From positions 1-23,802 of IMG/VR virus record IMGVR_UViG_3300010885_020208: DNA of 23,802 nt; one strand, 5' to 3'. The position numbers and the translations under genes were made by a program. Position 1 is the first letter of the stretch, and each line of letters begins with the position of its first letter. Shown here piece after piece: positions 3,425 to 23,802 of this stretch. The notes below the pieces were generated by a model. It was not told the origin of the DNA and ran no database searches. It saw nothing but the letters and a program-made list of their open reading frames with translations. This stretch comes from a virus.

Positions 3425-3937
3425 ATGGCACAAGAGAAATACTTACCAAGGGCGTACAAATACACAAGTACAAAAGAATATCACGATGCGTTTCCATGCG
3501 CTTACAGACAATGGCGAGCAGACAGTCATTGTAATCTAATTCACGGCTATTCATTTAGCATGAAGTTTTATTTTGGCACAGATGATTTGGATGTTCGAAA
3601 CTGGGCTGCTGATTATGGCGGATTAAAAGAACTTAAATCCGTATTAGAAGATCAATTTGACCATACACTAATTGTAGCACAAGATGATCCAGAAATGGCA
3701 ACATACAAACTGCTAGAAGAAAAGAAAATGGCAAAAGTTGTAGTACTACCTAAGTTAGGTTGTGAAGGGTTATCAGAAATGCTTTACAAATATGTAAATG
3801 GCGTTTATATTCCTGATAACTGGGGGCCAGGCGAAGCAGAACGCTTATGGTGCTACAAAGTAGAAGTTCGTGAAACCCAAAGCAATATGGCATATCGTGA
3901 AGGACATCGCGAATGGAACGAGGACTTATTCGCATAG
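3425..3937 (+). CDS. queD: QueD-like 6-carboxytetrahydropterin synthase / PTPS family
   Basis: In the queuosine pathway QueD turns the FolE product into 6-carboxy-5,6,7,8-tetrahydropterin. The 170-residue protein has the family pattern: DSHCNLIHGYSF at 33-44 with the presumed catalytic Cys36, DYGGLKELK at 63-71, FDHTL at 78-82 and VRETQSNMAYREG at 148-160 carrying the conserved Glu150. Two of the three usual zinc histidines appear as Tyr: the AAH position reads CAY (Tyr27), and HGH reads HGY (Tyr42). His40 remains, and His35 may substitute. This may be a divergent phage subfamily. folE upstream and queE downstream support a 7-deazaguanine role. ATG 3425 follows TAGGAG. Confidence 0.85.
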   Translation: MAQEKYLPRAYKYTSTKEYHDAFPCAYRQWRADSHCNLIHGYSFSMKFYFGTDDLDVRNWAADYGGLKELKSVLEDQFDHTLIVAQDDPEMATYKLLEEKKMAKVVVLPKLGCEGLSEMLYKYVNGVYIPDNWGPGEAERLWCYKVEVRETQSNMAYREGHREWNEDLFA

Positions 3938-8764: not shown

Positions 8765-9256
8765 ATGGACCATACTAACTTAACCTACAAAGACGTAGAA
8801 TGTTTATCCCAAGACATTTTACGTCAAATGACCCAAGATAGCTGGATGCCTGACTACATTGTAGGAATTACACGTGGTGGGTTACTTCCAGCTGTTCTTA
8901 TATCCCAATATTTAAATGTACCAATGGAAACACTTAAAGTATCCTTGCGGGATGATAGCCGAGAACAAGAACATAATCTTTGGATGCCTGAAGATGCCGC
9001 TAAAGGTAAAAACATTCTTATTGTAGATGATATTAATGATAGTGGTGCTACATTAAACTGGATTAAAGAAGATTGGTCGGATAGCGTTGCTTCAGCTGAT
9101 TGGGATAATATTTGGAATACTAATGTTCGTGTTGCTGTATTGATAAACAATGGGCCGAGTAAATTTAAACGTATTGATTATTCAGCATTAGAAATTAACA
9201 AACTTGAAGACCCTCGATGGGTTAATTTTCCTTATGAGGGGTGGTGGAAGAAATGA
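8765..9256 (+). CDS. Type I phosphoribosyltransferase
   Basis: A 163-residue protein that would transfer phosphoribose from PRPP to a base, or bind PRPP. The PRPP loop is ILIVDDINDSGAT at 84-96, and the upstream GITRGGLLP at 34-42 is the usual glycine-rich loop. Closest in style to hypoxanthine/xanthine phosphoribosyltransferases. The first ATG within the strong promoter context, 8765, is preferred over an upstream in-frame TTG at 8726 because that would overlap the -35 box. It is the first gene of an operon with queE (ATGA overlap at 9253), which hints at purine or 7-deazaguanine base salvage. Confidence 0.82.
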   Translation: MDHTNLTYKDVECLSQDILRQMTQDSWMPDYIVGITRGGLLPAVLISQYLNVPMETLKVSLRDDSREQEHNLWMPEDAAKGKNILIVDDINDSGATLNWIKEDWSDSVASADWDNIWNTNVRVAVLINNGPSKFKRIDYSALEINKLEDPRWVNFPYEGWWKK

Positions 9257-10101
9257 GTAAATTAAAGATTGCTGAATTATTTTATAGTTTGCAGGGTGAG
9301 GGCAGATACATGGGAGTCCCGAGTGTGTTCTTACGTACATTTGGCTGTAACTTTAAATGTGCTGGTTTTGGAATGCCCAGAGGTCAACTAAGTACAGAAT
9401 CTGACGCAGTAAGCCCAGACGGATTTACAGCATACGAAGAGCTTCCGTTAGTAAGCACAGGTTGCGACAGTTATGCTAGTTGGGATCCACGCTTTAAAGA
9501 TTTAAGTCCTTTGTTAGAAACAGATTTAATTGCCGAACGTATTGTAGAAATGCTTCCGTACAAACAATGGACGCACGAACATTTAGTTATTACAGGTGGC
9601 GAACCGTTGCTAGGTTGGCAACGTGCTTACCCTGATTTGCTTAATCATCCTGATATGAAACTGTTACGTGAAATTACATTTGAAACTAATGGTACACAAA
9701 AGTTAACTCCAGAATTTAAACAGTTCTTGATTAACTGGCAGTTGGATGGTGTAGGTAAGCCTAGACAAGTTACATTCTCCGTAAGTGCTAAATTAAGTTG
9801 TTCAGGCGAATTACGTGAAGAAGCTATCAAGCCAGAAGTTGTTTGTGACTATCAGGATGTAGGCTACACTTATTTAAAATTTGTAATTGCCACAGAAGAA
9901 GATGCTGAAGAAGCATTAGCTGTAGCACAAATTTATCACAACGCAGGATTTAGAGGTCCTATATACTTAATGCCAGTTGGCGGAGTGGAAAGCGTATACT
10001 CACTAAATAATCGTCGTGTAGCAGAACTTGCTATGGCAAATGGTTTACGTTATAGTGATAGATTACAAGTTCCGTTGTTTAAAAACGCTTGGGGTACATA
10101 A
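9253..10101 (+). CDS. queE: 7-carboxy-7-deazaguanine synthase (radical SAM)
   Basis: QueE rearranges 6-carboxytetrahydropterin to 7-carboxy-7-deazaguanine with a 4Fe-4S cluster and SAM. The 282-residue protein begins with the family signature ELFYSLQGEGRYMG at 8-21, then FGCNFKC (Cys32, Cys36) and GCDSYASW at 70-77 (Cys71). The insert between Cys36 and Cys71 is long compared with cellular QueE but is seen in phage-type versions. ITGGEPLLGW at 113-122 is the SAM-binding GGEP motif, and TFETNGT follows. ATG 9253 overlapping the preceding stop is preferred over an in-frame GTG at 9241. With folE and queD it supplies CDG; queC is not present here. Confidence 0.92.
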   Translation: MSKLKIAELFYSLQGEGRYMGVPSVFLRTFGCNFKCAGFGMPRGQLSTESDAVSPDGFTAYEELPLVSTGCDSYASWDPRFKDLSPLLETDLIAERIVEMLPYKQWTHEHLVITGGEPLLGWQRAYPDLLNHPDMKLLREITFETNGTQKLTPEFKQFLINWQLDGVGKPRQVTFSVSAKLSCSGELREEAIKPEVVCDYQDVGYTYLKFVIATEEDAEEALAVAQIYHNAGFRGPIYLMPVGGVESVYSLNNRRVAELAMANGLRYSDRLQVPLFKNAWGT

Positions 10102-15151: not shown

Positions 15152-15841
15152 ATGAATTGCCAATACTGTAACCGTCTTGCCAAAAGTACTAATTCTAATG
15201 TTCAACACGAAATTAGGTGTCATCAAAATCCTAACCGCATTAAATTAGTACCCACCTACGGTATGTTAGGGAAAAAAGGCGCTAATCAATATACTTACGG
15301 CGCTATAATGTCTGCCACAACTCGTAAAAAAATAAGCGACGCATCTATTATACAAAATAAAACACAATGGTTAGATCCAGTTATTAAAGCAAAACATAGA
15401 GAATCAATGAAACGGATAGCCAGAGAAAAGCCAGAATCGTATTCTGCGTCAAATCGTGGCAGAACTAAACAGATTATAGTAGATAATATAAAGCTACAGG
15501 GACAATGGGAAGTTGATTTTTATCTATGGGCTAAAGAGGAAGGACTTAACCCTATTAAACCAAGCACAGGATTTAGTTATACTTGGAACGGTGAACGAAC
15601 ATACTACCCTGATTTTTATATAAAATCGTTAGATTTATATATAGAAGTTAAAGGATACGAAACAGATAGGGATCGCTCAAAATGGTCGCAATTCCCTAAA
15701 AATCTGTGTATAATTAAAGAACAAGAAATAAAACAAATTAGAGAAAATAGTTTTAGGGCCGTTAGCTTAATGGTAAAGCGGAGAACTCATAATTCTAGGA
15801 GTGCTAGTTCAATTCTAGCACGGCCCACCAGAACTAAATAG
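15152..15841 (+). CDS. Homing-type nuclease: zinc finger, NUMOD3-like and PD-(D/E)XK domains
   Basis: A 229-residue predicted DNA endonuclease. A small zinc finger at the start has Cys3 and Cys6 with His19, Cys23 or His24. Residues 50-68 (YGAIMSATTRKKISDAS) resemble the NUMOD3 DNA-binding motif of homing nucleases. The catalytic fold is PD-(D/E)XK: Glu120, PD at 153-154, and E-V-K at 165-167. ATG 15152 is preferred over an in-frame TTG at 15116, which is the -35 box itself. Residues 202-229 are encoded by the CAT tRNA gene and 11 further bases, so the natural end may have been lost when the ORF met the tRNA. Such genes are mobile and often sit beside tRNA genes in phages. Confidence 0.75.
   Translation: MNCQYCNRLAKSTNSNVQHEIRCHQNPNRIKLVPTYGMLGKKGANQYTYGAIMSATTRKKISDASIIQNKTQWLDPVIKAKHRESMKRIAREKPESYSASNRGRTKQIIVDNIKLQGQWEVDFYLWAKEEGLNPIKPSTGFSYTWNGERTYYPDFYIKSLDLYIEVKGYETDRDRSKWSQFPKNLCIIKEQEIKQIRENSFRAVSLMVKRRTHNSRSASSILARPTRTK
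15756..15830 (+). tRNA. tRNA with anticodon CAT (Met or Ile2)
   Basis: A complete 75-nt cloverleaf with encoded CCA. The acceptor GGGCCGT pairs perfectly with ACGGCCC, the T arm is GCTAG/CTAGC around TTCAATT, the D arm is GCTT/AAGC, and the anticodon loop is CTCATAA. One mismatch closes the anticodon stem. CAT could be elongator Met or, with lysidine at C34, Ile for AUA codons; the TA after the acceptor and the D arm recall Ile2. It lies on the same strand inside the 3' end of the nuclease ORF. Confidence 0.93.
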
Positions 15842-15845
15842 CTTT

Positions 15846-15983
15846 ATGGAACAGAACAAAAAACCTGTGGAACAATATTATTACTCTGAAGAGGAGTGGA
15901 GTCGTTTAGGATGTGGTCCGTTACCTAAGGAGCGTGACCGTAGTCGATTAGTTGAGGAAACTCAACAAAAGAAATTGTTGTAG
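15846..15983 (+). CDS. Small acidic-basic protein, 45 aa
   Basis: ATG 15846 to TAG 15983 encodes MEQNKKPVEQYYYSEEEW followed by SRLGCGPLPKERDRSRLVEE and QQKKLL; soluble, charged, one cysteine. ACTAAATA at 15833-15840, a variant of the late box, ends five bases before the ATG, a spacing used elsewhere here. It ends just before the tmRNA acceptor piece. Codon use looks like its neighbours. No known family. Confidence 0.5.
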   Translation: MEQNKKPVEQYYYSEEEWSRLGCGPLPKERDRSRLVEETQQKKLL

Positions 15984-16051
15984 CCTTTAAATAGGCAATG
16001 TTGTAAAGTAAGGCGTTGCGGACGAGGGTTCAAATCCCTCCTGGTCCACCA
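15984..16051 (+). ncRNA. ssrA: Permuted tmRNA, acceptor piece (3' half)
   Basis: The piece ends in a T arm GAGGG/CCCTC around TTCAAAT (16024-16040), acceptor strand CTGGTCC (16041-16047), discriminator A and encoded CCA (16049-16051). It has no tRNA 5' half; TTGCGGACG before the T arm matches the tmRNA-type TTCGGACG. CTGGTCC pairs with GGGCCAG at 16132, 81 bp downstream, giving G3-U70, the alanine identity pair. So this is the 3' part of a two-piece tmRNA. The 5' limit is not fixed; the bases after the stop at 15983 form a small GCCT/AGGC hairpin. Confidence 0.88.
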
Positions 16052-16064
16052 AAAGGAGATTAGT

Positions 16065-16130
16065 ATGGATAATGAAGCTGTATTGCTTAGTGCATTTGTC
16101 CTAATAGGCGTAGTCCTAGTCTTTTTTTGA
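16065..16130 (+). CDS. Membrane micro-ORF in the tmRNA intervening segment, 21 aa
   Basis: ATG 16065, six bases after a strong AAGGAG (16053-16058), opens a 21-residue peptide MDNEAVLLSAF followed by VLIGVVLVFF, ending at TGA 16128-16130, one base before the tmRNA coding piece. The peptide is an acidic start plus one hydrophobic segment long enough to span or insert in a membrane. It fills nearly the whole stretch that must be removed from the permuted precursor. Whether it is translated before processing is unknown; a good ribosome-binding site argues against chance, the short length argues for caution. Confidence 0.45.
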   Translation: MDNEAVLLSAFVLIGVVLVFF

Positions 16131-16131
16131 T

Positions 16132-16345
16132 GGGCCAGATTATGGATTCGACGGGGCGAGATAGGATAACGACTCAACAGGACACAGAGAGTCCTTAAAA
16201 GTAAATTAATGTAAATGCAAAAACATCTACAGGCGAAGTAACTGTTTCAGCTAAGAACATCAAGTTCCGCACTTTAGCAGCCAAAGGCCAATCTTTAGCA
16301 GTTTAATCACTGCTTTGCGGAGTTATCCGTCGAAACAGAAAATAA
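16132..16345 (+). ncRNA. ssrA: Permuted tmRNA, coding piece (5' half)
   Basis: Begins GGGCCAGATTATGGATTCGACGG, in parts GGGCCAG then TTATGGATTCGACGG, the near-universal tmRNA 5' sequence. A short GACTC/GAGTC stem (16171-16193) stands where PK1 lies. GGATAAC (16164-16170) pairs with GTTATCC (16322-16328). The tag probably resumes at GCA 16217 and runs 29 codons to TAA 16304, ending SLAV; the stop sits in the loop of a GCAGT/ACTGC hairpin (16298-16313), exactly as in E. coli. The tag is long, and ends in LAV, not LAA. The 3' limit is set just before the terminator. Confidence 0.9.
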
Positions 16346-16347
16346 CA

Positions 16348-16373
16348 GAACCCGCTTCGGCGGGTTTCTTTTT
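16348..16373 (+). terminator. Rho-independent terminator after tmRNA
   Basis: A 7-bp stem AACCCGC/GCGGGTT with a TTCG tetraloop (16356-16359), followed by TTTCTTTTT. It ends the tmRNA transcript and separates it from the porin gene. Confidence 0.93.
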
Positions 16374-16478
16374 ATCCAAAATAATTGAATTGTTGCGGTG
16401 CTTTTACTACAAAATTTGCTGATCTACTGTTAGCCCACTAAATATTTGTCTGTAGTACTTTATAAAGGAAACAATAGA

Positions 16479-17216
16479 ATGAAAAAATTATTATTAGCAT
16501 TGTTTGCGATTGCAGGAATTACTTCTGCTCACGCACAAGTAACAGGCAATTTAGGATTGGCAACAGACTATCGCTTCCGCGGTATCAGCCAAACTCAAAA
16601 TGGCCCAGCGGTACAAGGCGGTGTTGACTACACTCACTCAAGCGGTTTGTATATTGGTAACTGGAACAGTAGTGTATCTAGCCAACTTTACACAAACGGC
16701 GCAGGTGTTGAGTCAGATGTCTATGCTGGTTTCAAGAAAGATATTTACAAGGGTCTAACAATTGATGTTGGTTCTTATAACTATTTTTATCCTAACGCTA
16801 CCAATGGTAAAAATCCTAACTTCAACACACAAGAATTGTATGCTGGTTTAGGTTATGGTCCTGTTGCTCTTAAGTACAGTCGTTCTACTAGTAATTACTT
16901 TGGTGTGAATAATAGTGCGGGCACACAATACTATCAAGCAGATGTTAAGCAAAGTTTTGCGCCTGTTTCAGCTAAACTCAAAGATTTGAGTTTTGTTGCT
17001 CACTATGGTCGTACAGCAGTTGCTAATCATGGTAACGCAAGTTACAATGACATCAACGTAGGTGCTGTTTACACATTGCCTAAGGCTTGGGATATTGGTG
17101 TTCGTTATTATACAAACACAAGTATGACTACTCAGAATCAACGTGCTAGTACCGTAAATGGTCAGCAGTTGTACAAAGATGCTTGGGTAGCTACACTAAC
17201 CAAAACATTTGAATAA
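16479..17216 (+). CDS. TorF-like outer-membrane porin
   Basis: A 245-residue secreted beta-barrel protein. Residues 1-19 are a classic signal peptide (MKKLLLALFAIAGITSAHA) with cleavage before Gln20. The mature start VTGNLGLATDYRFRGISQT is the hallmark of the Gcw_chp/TorF porin family, and the rest alternates polar and hydrophobic residues with many Tyr, Gly and Asn, as in outer-membrane strands, ending KTFE with Phe next to last. AAAGGAA (16464-16470) supports ATG 16479 over an in-frame GTG upstream. Such porins are chromosomal in proteobacteria; a phage copy could replace host porins or change permeability or receptor display during infection. Terminators flank it on both sides, so it is its own transcription unit. 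Confidence 0.85.
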   Translation: MKKLLLALFAIAGITSAHAQVTGNLGLATDYRFRGISQTQNGPAVQGGVDYTHSSGLYIGNWNSSVSSQLYTNGAGVESDVYAGFKKDIYKGLTIDVGSYNYFYPNATNGKNPNFNTQELYAGLGYGPVALKYSRSTSNYFGVNNSAGTQYYQADVKQSFAPVSAKLKDLSFVAHYGRTAVANHGNASYNDINVGAVYTLPKAWDIGVRYYTNTSMTTQNQRASTVNGQQLYKDAWVATLTKTFE

Positions 17217-18181: not shown

Positions 18182-18970
18182 TTACTTAACGCTTACTAAC
18201 TTAATAAAGTAATATGTAGGGTCTAATTCCCACCAGCGACGACCATAGTTAGGTTCGCCTGGTCTGCCGTGATGATTATTATGCCACGCTTCGCCCAATA
18301 TTAAAAAGAACAGCCAAGGAGAATTTACAGAGTCATCCTTGGTATTATAATTTCTGTAACCTATTTGACGATAGTGGTTAAAGCTAGTATTAATACCAAA
18401 GGTATGTAATCCTATAAATGCAGGAAACACTAACAAATACAAGCATAGGTCTACATTGATTAATGATACTATGCCATATGTTATCCATAGAATTTTATGA
18501 TAGTGTCTGTGTATAAAAGCGCAATAGGGATCACGCAATAAATCTATTGTATAGCGTGGACTTAAATTATCTTCTAGAGTAAACATCCAACCAATGTAAC
18601 TGTGAAAGAATCCGTGGCGCGGACTATGTGGATCTCGATCTTTGTCTGCGTGTAAATGATGATATCCTCTGTGAACTGTTGCCCAGAAGATAGGACTTTC
18701 TTGTCCAGCCAGTGCTCCAAAGTATAATATAATTTTTCTAACTAACGGGTGTACCTTATATCCTTTGTGGCAAATTAATCTATGATAACCGGCACTAACC
18801 CCTATCATAACTAAACATACATAACCAACAATACTAGCTATCCACCACCAACTAGGAGCAGACCCTATAATGATATTGTATAAGGCATAAATGCCAAGAA
18901 TTTGGATAGGCACAATGCCTGCCCACAGATTAGTCTGCTTAACAAAGTTTTTTAATATATTAGTTTTCAT
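18182..18970 (-). CDS. Membrane fatty-acid desaturase (delta-9 type) 1
   Basis: A 262-residue integral-membrane di-iron desaturase. Three His boxes are intact: HRLICH at 63-68, HRGYHH at 100-105 and HNNHH at 230-234, with HADKDRDPHSP after the second box, typical of acyl-CoA or acyl-lipid delta-9 desaturases. Hydrophobic segments lie near 17-36, 41-60, 80-90 and 160-195. It would put a double bond in membrane acyl chains using O2 and electrons from a host ferredoxin or cytochrome. It overlaps the GNAT-like gene by 11 bp and is followed 3 bp later by the PP-loop gene. A second, clearly different desaturase lies just across the divergent promoters. Confidence 0.9.
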   Translation of the reverse strand: MKTNILKNFVKQTNLWAGIVPIQILGIYALYNIIIGSAPSWWWIASIVGYVCLVMIGVSAGYHRLICHKGYKVHPLVRKIILYFGALAGQESPIFWATVHRGYHHLHADKDRDPHSPRHGFFHSYIGWMFTLEDNLSPRYTIDLLRDPYCAFIHRHYHKILWITYGIVSLINVDLCLYLLVFPAFIGLHTFGINTSFNHYRQIGYRNYNTKDDSVNSPWLFFLILGEAWHNNHHGRPGEPNYGRRWWELDPTYYFIKLVSVK

Positions 18971-19578: not shown

Positions 19579-20388
19579 ATGTTAAAATATCTTGACCCAG
19601 ATAAATGGGACATCTCTTCTGGCAACAAAGTTAGATCCATATTGCTTATTGCTAATTTGGTATGCTTCTACTGGCTTTTTACTTCGTTTAACTGGTTTGG
19701 ATTTGCTGTAGGATTTGTTCTATATATTTTTATTGCTAAAATTGGTAGCGACATAGGTACACATAGATACTTTTGTCATAAAAGTTTTGTAGCTAAACCT
19801 TGGGTTGAGCGTATGTTCTTTATTGCGGCGGCTATGGTTCCGTTTGGTAGTCCTATACATTGGGTTGGTGTACATAGACTACATCATGAAAAGTCAGATG
19901 AGCCAGGCGACCCGCATAGTCCACATCATACAGGCTTTTGGAAAGTATGGACATTCCAACTAGGAACACATTGGAATATTAGTACAAAATATGTAAAAGA
20001 TTTAATACGTGATAAACGCCATGTATTCTTGTTTAAAAACTATTTTAAAATTTACTTTTTATATGTAGGAATTACTGTATTAATTGCTATATTCTTTGGG
20101 TGGGAATGGATAGTTTACTTGTGGGCGTTGCCTACTACCTTAGTATTACACACTTCTTCAGCAATTAACACTATCTGCCACAAATACGGTTATCAAACTT
20201 ATAAAACAGGAGAAGCAAGTACTAATAATATTTGGTTAAATTTTTTAGTTTGGGGCAATGCTATGCACAATAACCACCACGGCAAACCTCGAGCATACTC
20301 ACAAGCAGGAGAAAAATGGTACGAATTTGATTGGTGGGGGTGTTTAATTAACCGTATTTTAATGGTTAAACCTGCTAATATAGAATAA
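19579..20388 (+). CDS. Membrane fatty-acid desaturase (delta-9 type) 2
   Basis: A 269-residue desaturase with the same three His boxes as its divergent neighbour: HRYFCH at 62-67, HRLHH at 99-103 and HNNHH at 230-234, and the EPGDPHSPHH stretch after box two. Hydrophobic stretches are near 20-38, 41-58, 78-95 and 158-195. The sequences differ widely outside the boxes, so this is an ancient paralog or a separate acquisition, not a recent duplication. Two desaturases may act on different chain positions or lipid classes. ATG 19579 is preceded by a late box but no ribosome-binding site. Confidence 0.9.
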   Translation: MLKYLDPDKWDISSGNKVRSILLIANLVCFYWLFTSFNWFGFAVGFVLYIFIAKIGSDIGTHRYFCHKSFVAKPWVERMFFIAAAMVPFGSPIHWVGVHRLHHEKSDEPGDPHSPHHTGFWKVWTFQLGTHWNISTKYVKDLIRDKRHVFLFKNYFKIYFLYVGITVLIAIFFGWEWIVYLWALPTTLVLHTSSAINTICHKYGYQTYKTGEASTNNIWLNFLVWGNAMHNNHHGKPRAYSQAGEKWYEFDWWGCLINRILMVKPANIE

Positions 20389-23568: not shown

Positions 23569-23654
23569 GGGTCGGTGGGTGAGTGGCTAAAACCAGGAGA
23601 CTGTAAATCTCCCTCCTTATGGATACGAAAGTTCGAATCTTTCCTGGCCCACCA
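23569..23654 (+). tRNA. tRNA-Tyr (GTA)
   Basis: 86-nt tRNA with a long variable arm, as in bacterial Tyr. Acceptor GGGTCGG pairs with CTGGCCC (two G-U pairs), anticodon stem GGAGA/TCTCC, loop CTGTAAA (anticodon GTA), T arm GAAAG/CTTTC around TTCGAAT, encoded CCA. Confidence 0.95.
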
Positions 23655-23661
23655 TAATTAT

Positions 23662-23735
23662 TCCTTGGTGATGTAATGGTAGCATAGCGGTCTCCAAAAC
23701 CGTTCGTTGCAGTTCGAGTCTGTACCGGGGAGCCA
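23662..23735 (+). tRNA. tRNA-Trp (CCA)
   Basis: 74-nt cloverleaf: acceptor TCCTTGG/CCGGGGA with G-U pairs, anticodon stem GCGGT/ACCGT (one wobble), loop CTCCAAA (anticodon CCA), T loop TTCGAGT, discriminator G and encoded CCA. G73 is a Trp identity base in bacteria. Confidence 0.93.
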
Positions 23736-23740
23736 GTAGT

Positions 23741-23802
23741 GGGGGTGTAGCTCAGTTGGGAGAGCGCCAGCTTTGCAAGCTGGATGTCGTCGGTTCGATC
23801 CC
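23741..23802 (+). tRNA. tRNA-Ala (TGC), cut off at the right edge
   Basis: Acceptor GGGGGTG, D arm GCTC/GAGC, anticodon stem CCAGC/GCTGG with loop TTTGCAA (anticodon TGC), and a T loop TTCGATC. The window ends inside the T arm, so the acceptor 3' strand and CCA are not visible. Confidence 0.93.

Follow-up and report, generated by a model that had tools for sequence, protein, structure and literature searches.

Permuted tmRNA genes, in which the 3' piece of the molecule is encoded ahead of the 5' piece, are processed in bacteria by RNase P and tRNA 3' nucleases, as is established. The window analysed here, the whole 23,802-base contig of an IMG/VR virus record, contains such a gene with a short open reading frame in the intervening segment (the spacer), and the same processing is assumed for it. 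The permuted tmRNAs of Betaproteobacteria (RF01850, RF04321) share with the window the order of the pieces, the acceptor and T arms, the tag reading frame, and a hairpin-type spacer that starts with NAAG and has a CTT-rich arm at its end. However, the spacers of Burkholderiales are mostly 25-43 nt long and have no ORF, whereas the window has a spacer of 80 nt with a gene in it and a 29-residue tag ending in LAV.

Two-piece tmRNA is already known in phages. A study of 2022 (PMC9004378) contains 53 two-piece molecules among 133 distinct phage tmRNAs, 50 of the 53 from marine or aquatic phages, and reports a two-piece ssrA of the alphaproteobacterial type in the cultured Methylophilales phage Melnitz. 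This contradicts the first-pass annotation, which knew phage tmRNAs in the one-piece form only and thereby implied that a permuted phage gene would be novel; the new part is the protein-coding gene in the spacer. Melnitz and the other aquatic phages of that study resemble the window in encoding a permuted tmRNA, and Melnitz (MZ577097.1; positions 1488-1940 of our locus L502) also has a spacer ORF led by a Shine-Dalgarno site, MFKWLSKTRLVVITRDYFRERNRKADAKIPKYLSGTRSVYD, which reads into the 5' piece and lies within the published ssrA. This ORF carries no annotation in the record region examined, and PMC9004378 is silent on it. Hairpin-only spacers are seen in the permuted tmRNAs of Pelagibacter phage Mosig and of Alcaligenes phage vB_Af_QDWS595; the gene of the latter (OK149171.2; positions 941-1317 of locus L649) is without annotation in the GenBank region examined.

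Other genes nested in tmRNA have been described. A catalogue (PMC11915505) that lists 11,946 permuted sequences along with 79 tmRNAs of bacteriophages includes a group I intron of tmRNA that carries a homing endonuclease gene; it also includes a single permuted tmRNA whose intervening sequence contains another gene, but there it is a tRNA gene. Neither in that catalogue nor in a search of the openly accessible journal literature did we see a protein-coding gene described in the spacer of a permuted tmRNA. The window had no match among 50,697 phage records (megablast) or among plasmids, and a distant blastn search with the tmRNA region returned only tRNA- or terminator-sized pieces. A tblastn search of isolates with the spacer peptides yielded nothing beyond Melnitz with its own peptide.

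The permuted tmRNA gene and its surroundings

ARAGORN and Rfam agree on a single tmRNA gene in the window, permuted and spanning about 15999-16345 on the plus strand, as are all elements of the locus described below. The permuted tmRNA called by ARAGORN covers 15959-16397; the program assigns 16013-16051 to the 3' tRNA domain and 16132-16159 to the 5' tRNA domain. The Rfam model tmRNA_permuted (RF04321) matches 15999-16285 with 78.7 bits (E 7.8e-14), over its gathering score of 47. Among the three older clade models beta_tmRNA (RF01850) is the nearest, but its 65.8 bits (E 1.1e-19) are below the gathering score of 84, and the gene is not counted as a member of that family. Thus the covariance-model and ARAGORN runs proposed in the first-pass annotation bear out its main claim, a host-type permuted two-piece tmRNA on a phage genome.

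The 3' piece (15999-16051; ARAGORN, RF04321) consists of a pairing segment, the T arm (stem-loop GAGGG-TTCAAAT-CCCTC), the acceptor strand CTGGTCC (16041-16047) and an encoded CCA (16049-16051). The 5' tRNA-like domain (16132-16159) contains GGGCCAG (16132-16138) and TTCGAC, and the RNase P cut is predicted between 16131 and 16132. The placement of the T arm, acceptor strand and CCA ahead of a 5' sequence starting at 16132, as first annotated, coincides with the piece boundaries of ARAGORN, and the proposed seven-pair acceptor stem with a G3-U70 pair is present. We infer that the processed molecule would be a two-piece tmRNA charged with alanine. The resume codon is GCA at 16217, and the tag AKTSTGEVTVSAKNIKFRTLAAKGQSLAV of 29 residues is encoded at 16217-16306. 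Its TAA stop codon is in the loop of a GCAGT/ACTGC hairpin (16298-16313), and an intrinsic terminator follows (16348-16373; terminator-like hairpin part 16348-16367), both as annotated earlier. What that description overlooked is the protein-coding ORF between the two pieces. No sigma-70-like promoter was observed in 15500-16500. A match to the Rfam OrzO-P model at 16289-16371 was below threshold and was taken as chance.

The tags of the window and of the phage contigs L160 and L029 end in LAV and not in LAA. Among 165 distinct phage tags, 128 end in LAA and five in LAV; the latter form one group with the common core VS-[AG]-KN-[ILV]-KF, and thus the changed ClpXP-type end may be under selection.

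The same layout was sought in other phages, as the first-pass annotation had suggested, and it was found in many IMG/VR contigs. Independent contigs, L160 (317 kb) and the pair L124 and L197 (12 and 289 kb), have both this layout and homologous spacer sequence, so an assembly chimera, named earlier as a refuting outcome, is unlikely. A chimera or a fragment of host chromosome would fit the lack of a terminase match in the window and the host-like porin gene near the tmRNA. However, the source is a virus record, the window encodes phage exonuclease, MazG and QueE families, and among 14 large related contigs with the same layout 11 have a terminase, which leaves this explanation with a practically negligible probability.

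Directly after the terminator of the tmRNA gene there is a gene for an outer-membrane porin of the TorF family (16479-17216; TIGR02001, Pfam Gcw_chp), an unusual phage cargo. Two fatty-acid desaturase-like genes reside on this one phage contig, at 18182-18970 on the minus strand and at 19579-20388 on the plus strand. FolE-, QueD- and QueE-like genes are located at 1868-2659, 3425-3937 and 9241-10101, suggesting a 7-deazaguanine pathway for modification of DNA or RNA. The tRNA genes at 15756-15830 and 23569-23802 have the CAT anticodon (Met or Ile2) and the specificities Tyr and Trp, and a fourth is truncated at the end of the window. A free-standing small gene (15846-15983) lies just ahead of the tmRNA, after the CAT tRNA; it encodes the 45-residue protein MEQNKKPVEQYYYSEEEWSRLGCGPLPKERDRSRLVEETQQKKLL, which is homologous to ORFs inside the tmRNA spacers of two other contigs, L218 and L284.

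Probable small genes in the spacers

The spacer of the window occupies 16052-16131, as delimited by the ARAGORN piece boundaries. It follows the plan AAAGGAG ATTAGT ATG ... TGA T / GGG, where the slash is the predicted RNase P site: a Shine-Dalgarno site (16052-16058) stands directly after CCA, the ATG is at 16065, and the ORF (16065-16130) has 21 sense codons and the stop codon TGA (16128-16130) one base ahead of the cleavage site. The ribosome-binding site and start just after CCA and the open frame behind them mark this ORF as a candidate gene. Its predicted product MDNEAVLLSAFVLIGVVLVFF looks like one hydrophobic helix. Homologs are found in L124 and L160, and L197 has the peptide plan and the tag of L124. 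The ORF of L124 is of the window type, but its tag is different (ANDEQFALAA), while L160 has a tag of the window type, which suggests that spacer genes are exchanged independently of the tmRNA body. The same plan with an unrelated ORF of 39 residues is present in L002, the permuted relative that was examined first. The family of the window itself is only modestly constrained, with pN/pS of 0.44 in three sequences only. The window spacer aligns at both of its ends with L157 and L129, members of the largest family (23 sequences, pN/pS 0.24), and the coding case therefore partly rests on this larger related family.

The Shine-Dalgarno site is also the 5' arm of a spacer hairpin, as seen from the predicted fold and arm pairing, and the 3' arm, beginning CUAGUCUUUUUU, overlaps the last codons (approximately 16116-16128). 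The arms of the window spacer are joined by 12 predicted pairs (-10.2 kcal/mol); the fold of the whole spacer is only moderately better than that of shuffled sequences (z -1.8). Across phages, the mean duplex energy of a spacer's own arms is -8.4 kcal/mol; it is -5.0 when arms of different families are combined (mismatched) and -2.8 when the arms are shuffled. Own-arm pairing was under the mismatched mean in 52 of 54 families. The predicted hairpin would thus hold the Shine-Dalgarno site against the final codons of the reading frame, and since the latter are part of the 3' arm, TGA-ending products mostly end in FF, LL, SL or FL. This hairpin base, with no insert, is also present in the spacers of Burkholderiales, so the nested genes seem to be located in an ancestral hairpin.

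The first pattern scan of IMG/VR gave 81 distinct permuted spacers of at least 15 nt, unselected for spacer content. About 65 of them are hairpin-only, and in about 15 a Shine-Dalgarno-led ORF starts 9-14 nt after CCA; like all frequencies obtained by sampling with a sequence pattern, these are rough. As hairpin-only spacers are common in this sample and are also present in Mosig and QDWS595, the nested gene is optional. ORFs of at least 18 residues led by a Shine-Dalgarno site were observed in 19 of the 81 spacers, compared to about 4 of 81 expected by chance from shuffled spacers.

Larger samples came from scans for the plan itself, with patterns that fix the Shine-Dalgarno site, the ATG and the spacer end and leave the reading frame free. 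Four ranges of rising ORF length gave 82, at least 120, 85 and at least 120 contigs. A scan of a longer range gave 14 contigs, most of them real, with ORFs of 65-73 residues in spacers of 220-249 nt; no spacer above about 185 nt was present among the previously collected loci, and these long ones appeared only by direct scanning. Pattern matches that are not tmRNA, for example L134, L138, L169, L206 and L625, were dropped, leaving 194 distinct spacers verified as tmRNA. In 156 of the 194 the Shine-Dalgarno-led frame is open to at most 14 nt from the spacer end; for the frames shifted by +1 and +2 the numbers are 0 and 20.

The verified spacers encode about 58 peptide families, a count that varies with the clustering thresholds. 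All 22 testable families have pN/pS below 1, and in 20 of these the Shine-Dalgarno-led frame has the lowest value of the three. The family-weighted mean is 0.22 in this frame and 0.97 and 1.56 in the shifted ones. Judged by these substitution patterns, the spacer ORFs evolve under purifying selection at the protein level across many phages. The ORFs of L623 and L624 match the Pfam family DUF2061 (E 3.5e-20 and 3.7e-21), and that of L622 matches PGDYG (E 3.4e-6, above its cut-off); these matches sit inside spacers of 220 and 248 nt. In L623, a 320-kb contig, and in L624, a DUF2061 membrane protein is coded wholly within a 220-nt tmRNA spacer. The short peptides mostly have no family match in Pfam and PHROGs, with weak zinc-ribbon-like hits only. 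By a simple hydropathy rule, about a third of the families look like a single membrane helix. Free-standing members were found for at least 11 spacer-ORF families; nearly all share the strand of the tmRNA gene, and most lie just ahead of it.

The ORFs end in three ways. In 27 families the stop is the TGA that a single base separates from the RNase P site, in 16 the frame runs into the 5' piece, and in 15 it ends earlier in the spacer, mostly 12 nt before the RNase P site. The ratio of TGA ends to run-through, 27:16, is higher than the 1:2 expected for random frames (p 7e-5). Among individual spacers, 57 of the 194 have an ORF that is open into the 5' piece, and cleavage by RNase P would leave such an ORF without a stop codon. 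The tails beyond the cleavage site, about 3 to 30 residues, are conserved neither in length nor in sequence and look unselected. Within some families the type of end switches.

Bacterial controls were 55 permuted tmRNAs (15 from Burkholderiales, 28 alphaproteobacterial, 12 cyanobacterial), with spacers mostly of 5-48 nt and one of 239 nt. None of the 55 has a Shine-Dalgarno-led ORF of at least 10 residues, and another nine alphaproteobacterial tmRNAs, selected because their model matches were long, showed no ORF starting next to CCA. Over 257 Gb of genome sequence from bacteria and archaea the same DNA pattern had nine matches, none of them a tmRNA. Within the samples examined, the nested spacer gene appears to be phage-specific.

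Possible mechanism and alternative explanations

With high confidence, we interpret the locus as a phage permuted tmRNA whose spacer became the site of a small protein-coding gene. The order of elements seen in the sequence is the 3' piece with CCA, the Shine-Dalgarno site, ATG, the small ORF, its stop codon, and the 5' piece with the tag frame. In a single transcript, RNase P would cut where the 5' piece begins and tRNA 3'-end nucleases would cut behind CCA, yielding a two-piece, alanine-charged tmRNA and a freed mini-mRNA. In ribosome rescue during infection, a use proposed in the first-pass annotation, the tmRNA would work with SmpB of the host; no match to SmpB (PF01668) was found in the 14 large related phage contigs, which are possibly incomplete, and hence host SmpB would be needed. 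The small protein may be translated from the precursor or from the freed spacer, and its output would be coupled to that of tmRNA and held down by the hairpin. Different phages would fill this exchangeable slot with unrelated small genes, many of them also free-standing beside tmRNA.

A simpler view is that this is an ordinary phage permuted tmRNA, in which the AT-rich hairpin sequence of the spacer happens to be open in one frame. Indeed, many phage spacers have no ORF, and shuffling alone produces a few ORFs of the required length. However, this view is already contradicted by the frame-specific purifying selection in all testable families and by the Pfam matches, and the free-standing homologs and the absence of such ORFs from the bacterial sample speak against it as well; we consider it very improbable. 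A different role would be that of a leader peptide regulating tmRNA maturation, where the act of translation outweighs the product: ribosomes would unfold the hairpin and mask the RNase P site. The pairing of the Shine-Dalgarno site with the last codons and the frequent stop one base from the RNase P site are consistent with this. But about 58 unrelated families with constraint at the amino-acid level suggest that the proteins themselves matter, and so do the free-standing homologs and products of up to about 73 residues, including DUF2061. As the main function a leader peptide seems unlikely, but the two roles could coexist.

The run-through class allows one more possibility. E. coli ArfA is the precedent for a feedback sensor of this kind: cleavage by RNase P would create a nonstop mRNA, the product of which is tagged by the same tmRNA. 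The ORFs open across the cleavage site and their unconserved tails would agree with this. However, most families stop inside the spacer, and the type of end changes within some of them, so that such a sensor is improbable. Returning to the nested protein-coding gene, one could extend it by supposing that for aquatic phages the excised spacer is an exchangeable slot for small host-takeover proteins, coupled to tmRNA maturation, and that in the stopless class the product is tagged and removed by the tmRNA of the same locus, which would then be a switch sensing its own capacity for ribosome rescue; we offer this extension tentatively and hold it to be doubtful.

In animal mitochondrial transcripts tRNAs punctuate the mRNAs, and the processing enzymes free the mRNA between tRNA-like elements. 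The phage locus would be alike in that tRNA-processing enzymes release an mRNA between tRNA-like elements. In the window, however, the flanking elements are the halves of one two-piece RNA, and the processing is assumed.

The intervening segment of a two-piece tmRNA is usually regarded as waste. If the proteins are real, a large number of small phage genes have gone unnoticed so far, because gene callers tend to skip very short ORFs and ORFs inside annotated RNA genes. The nested gene would then provide a bacterial-virus case of tRNA-processing enzymes separating an mRNA from flanking structured RNAs, and ribosome rescue would be linked with the output of a small protein.
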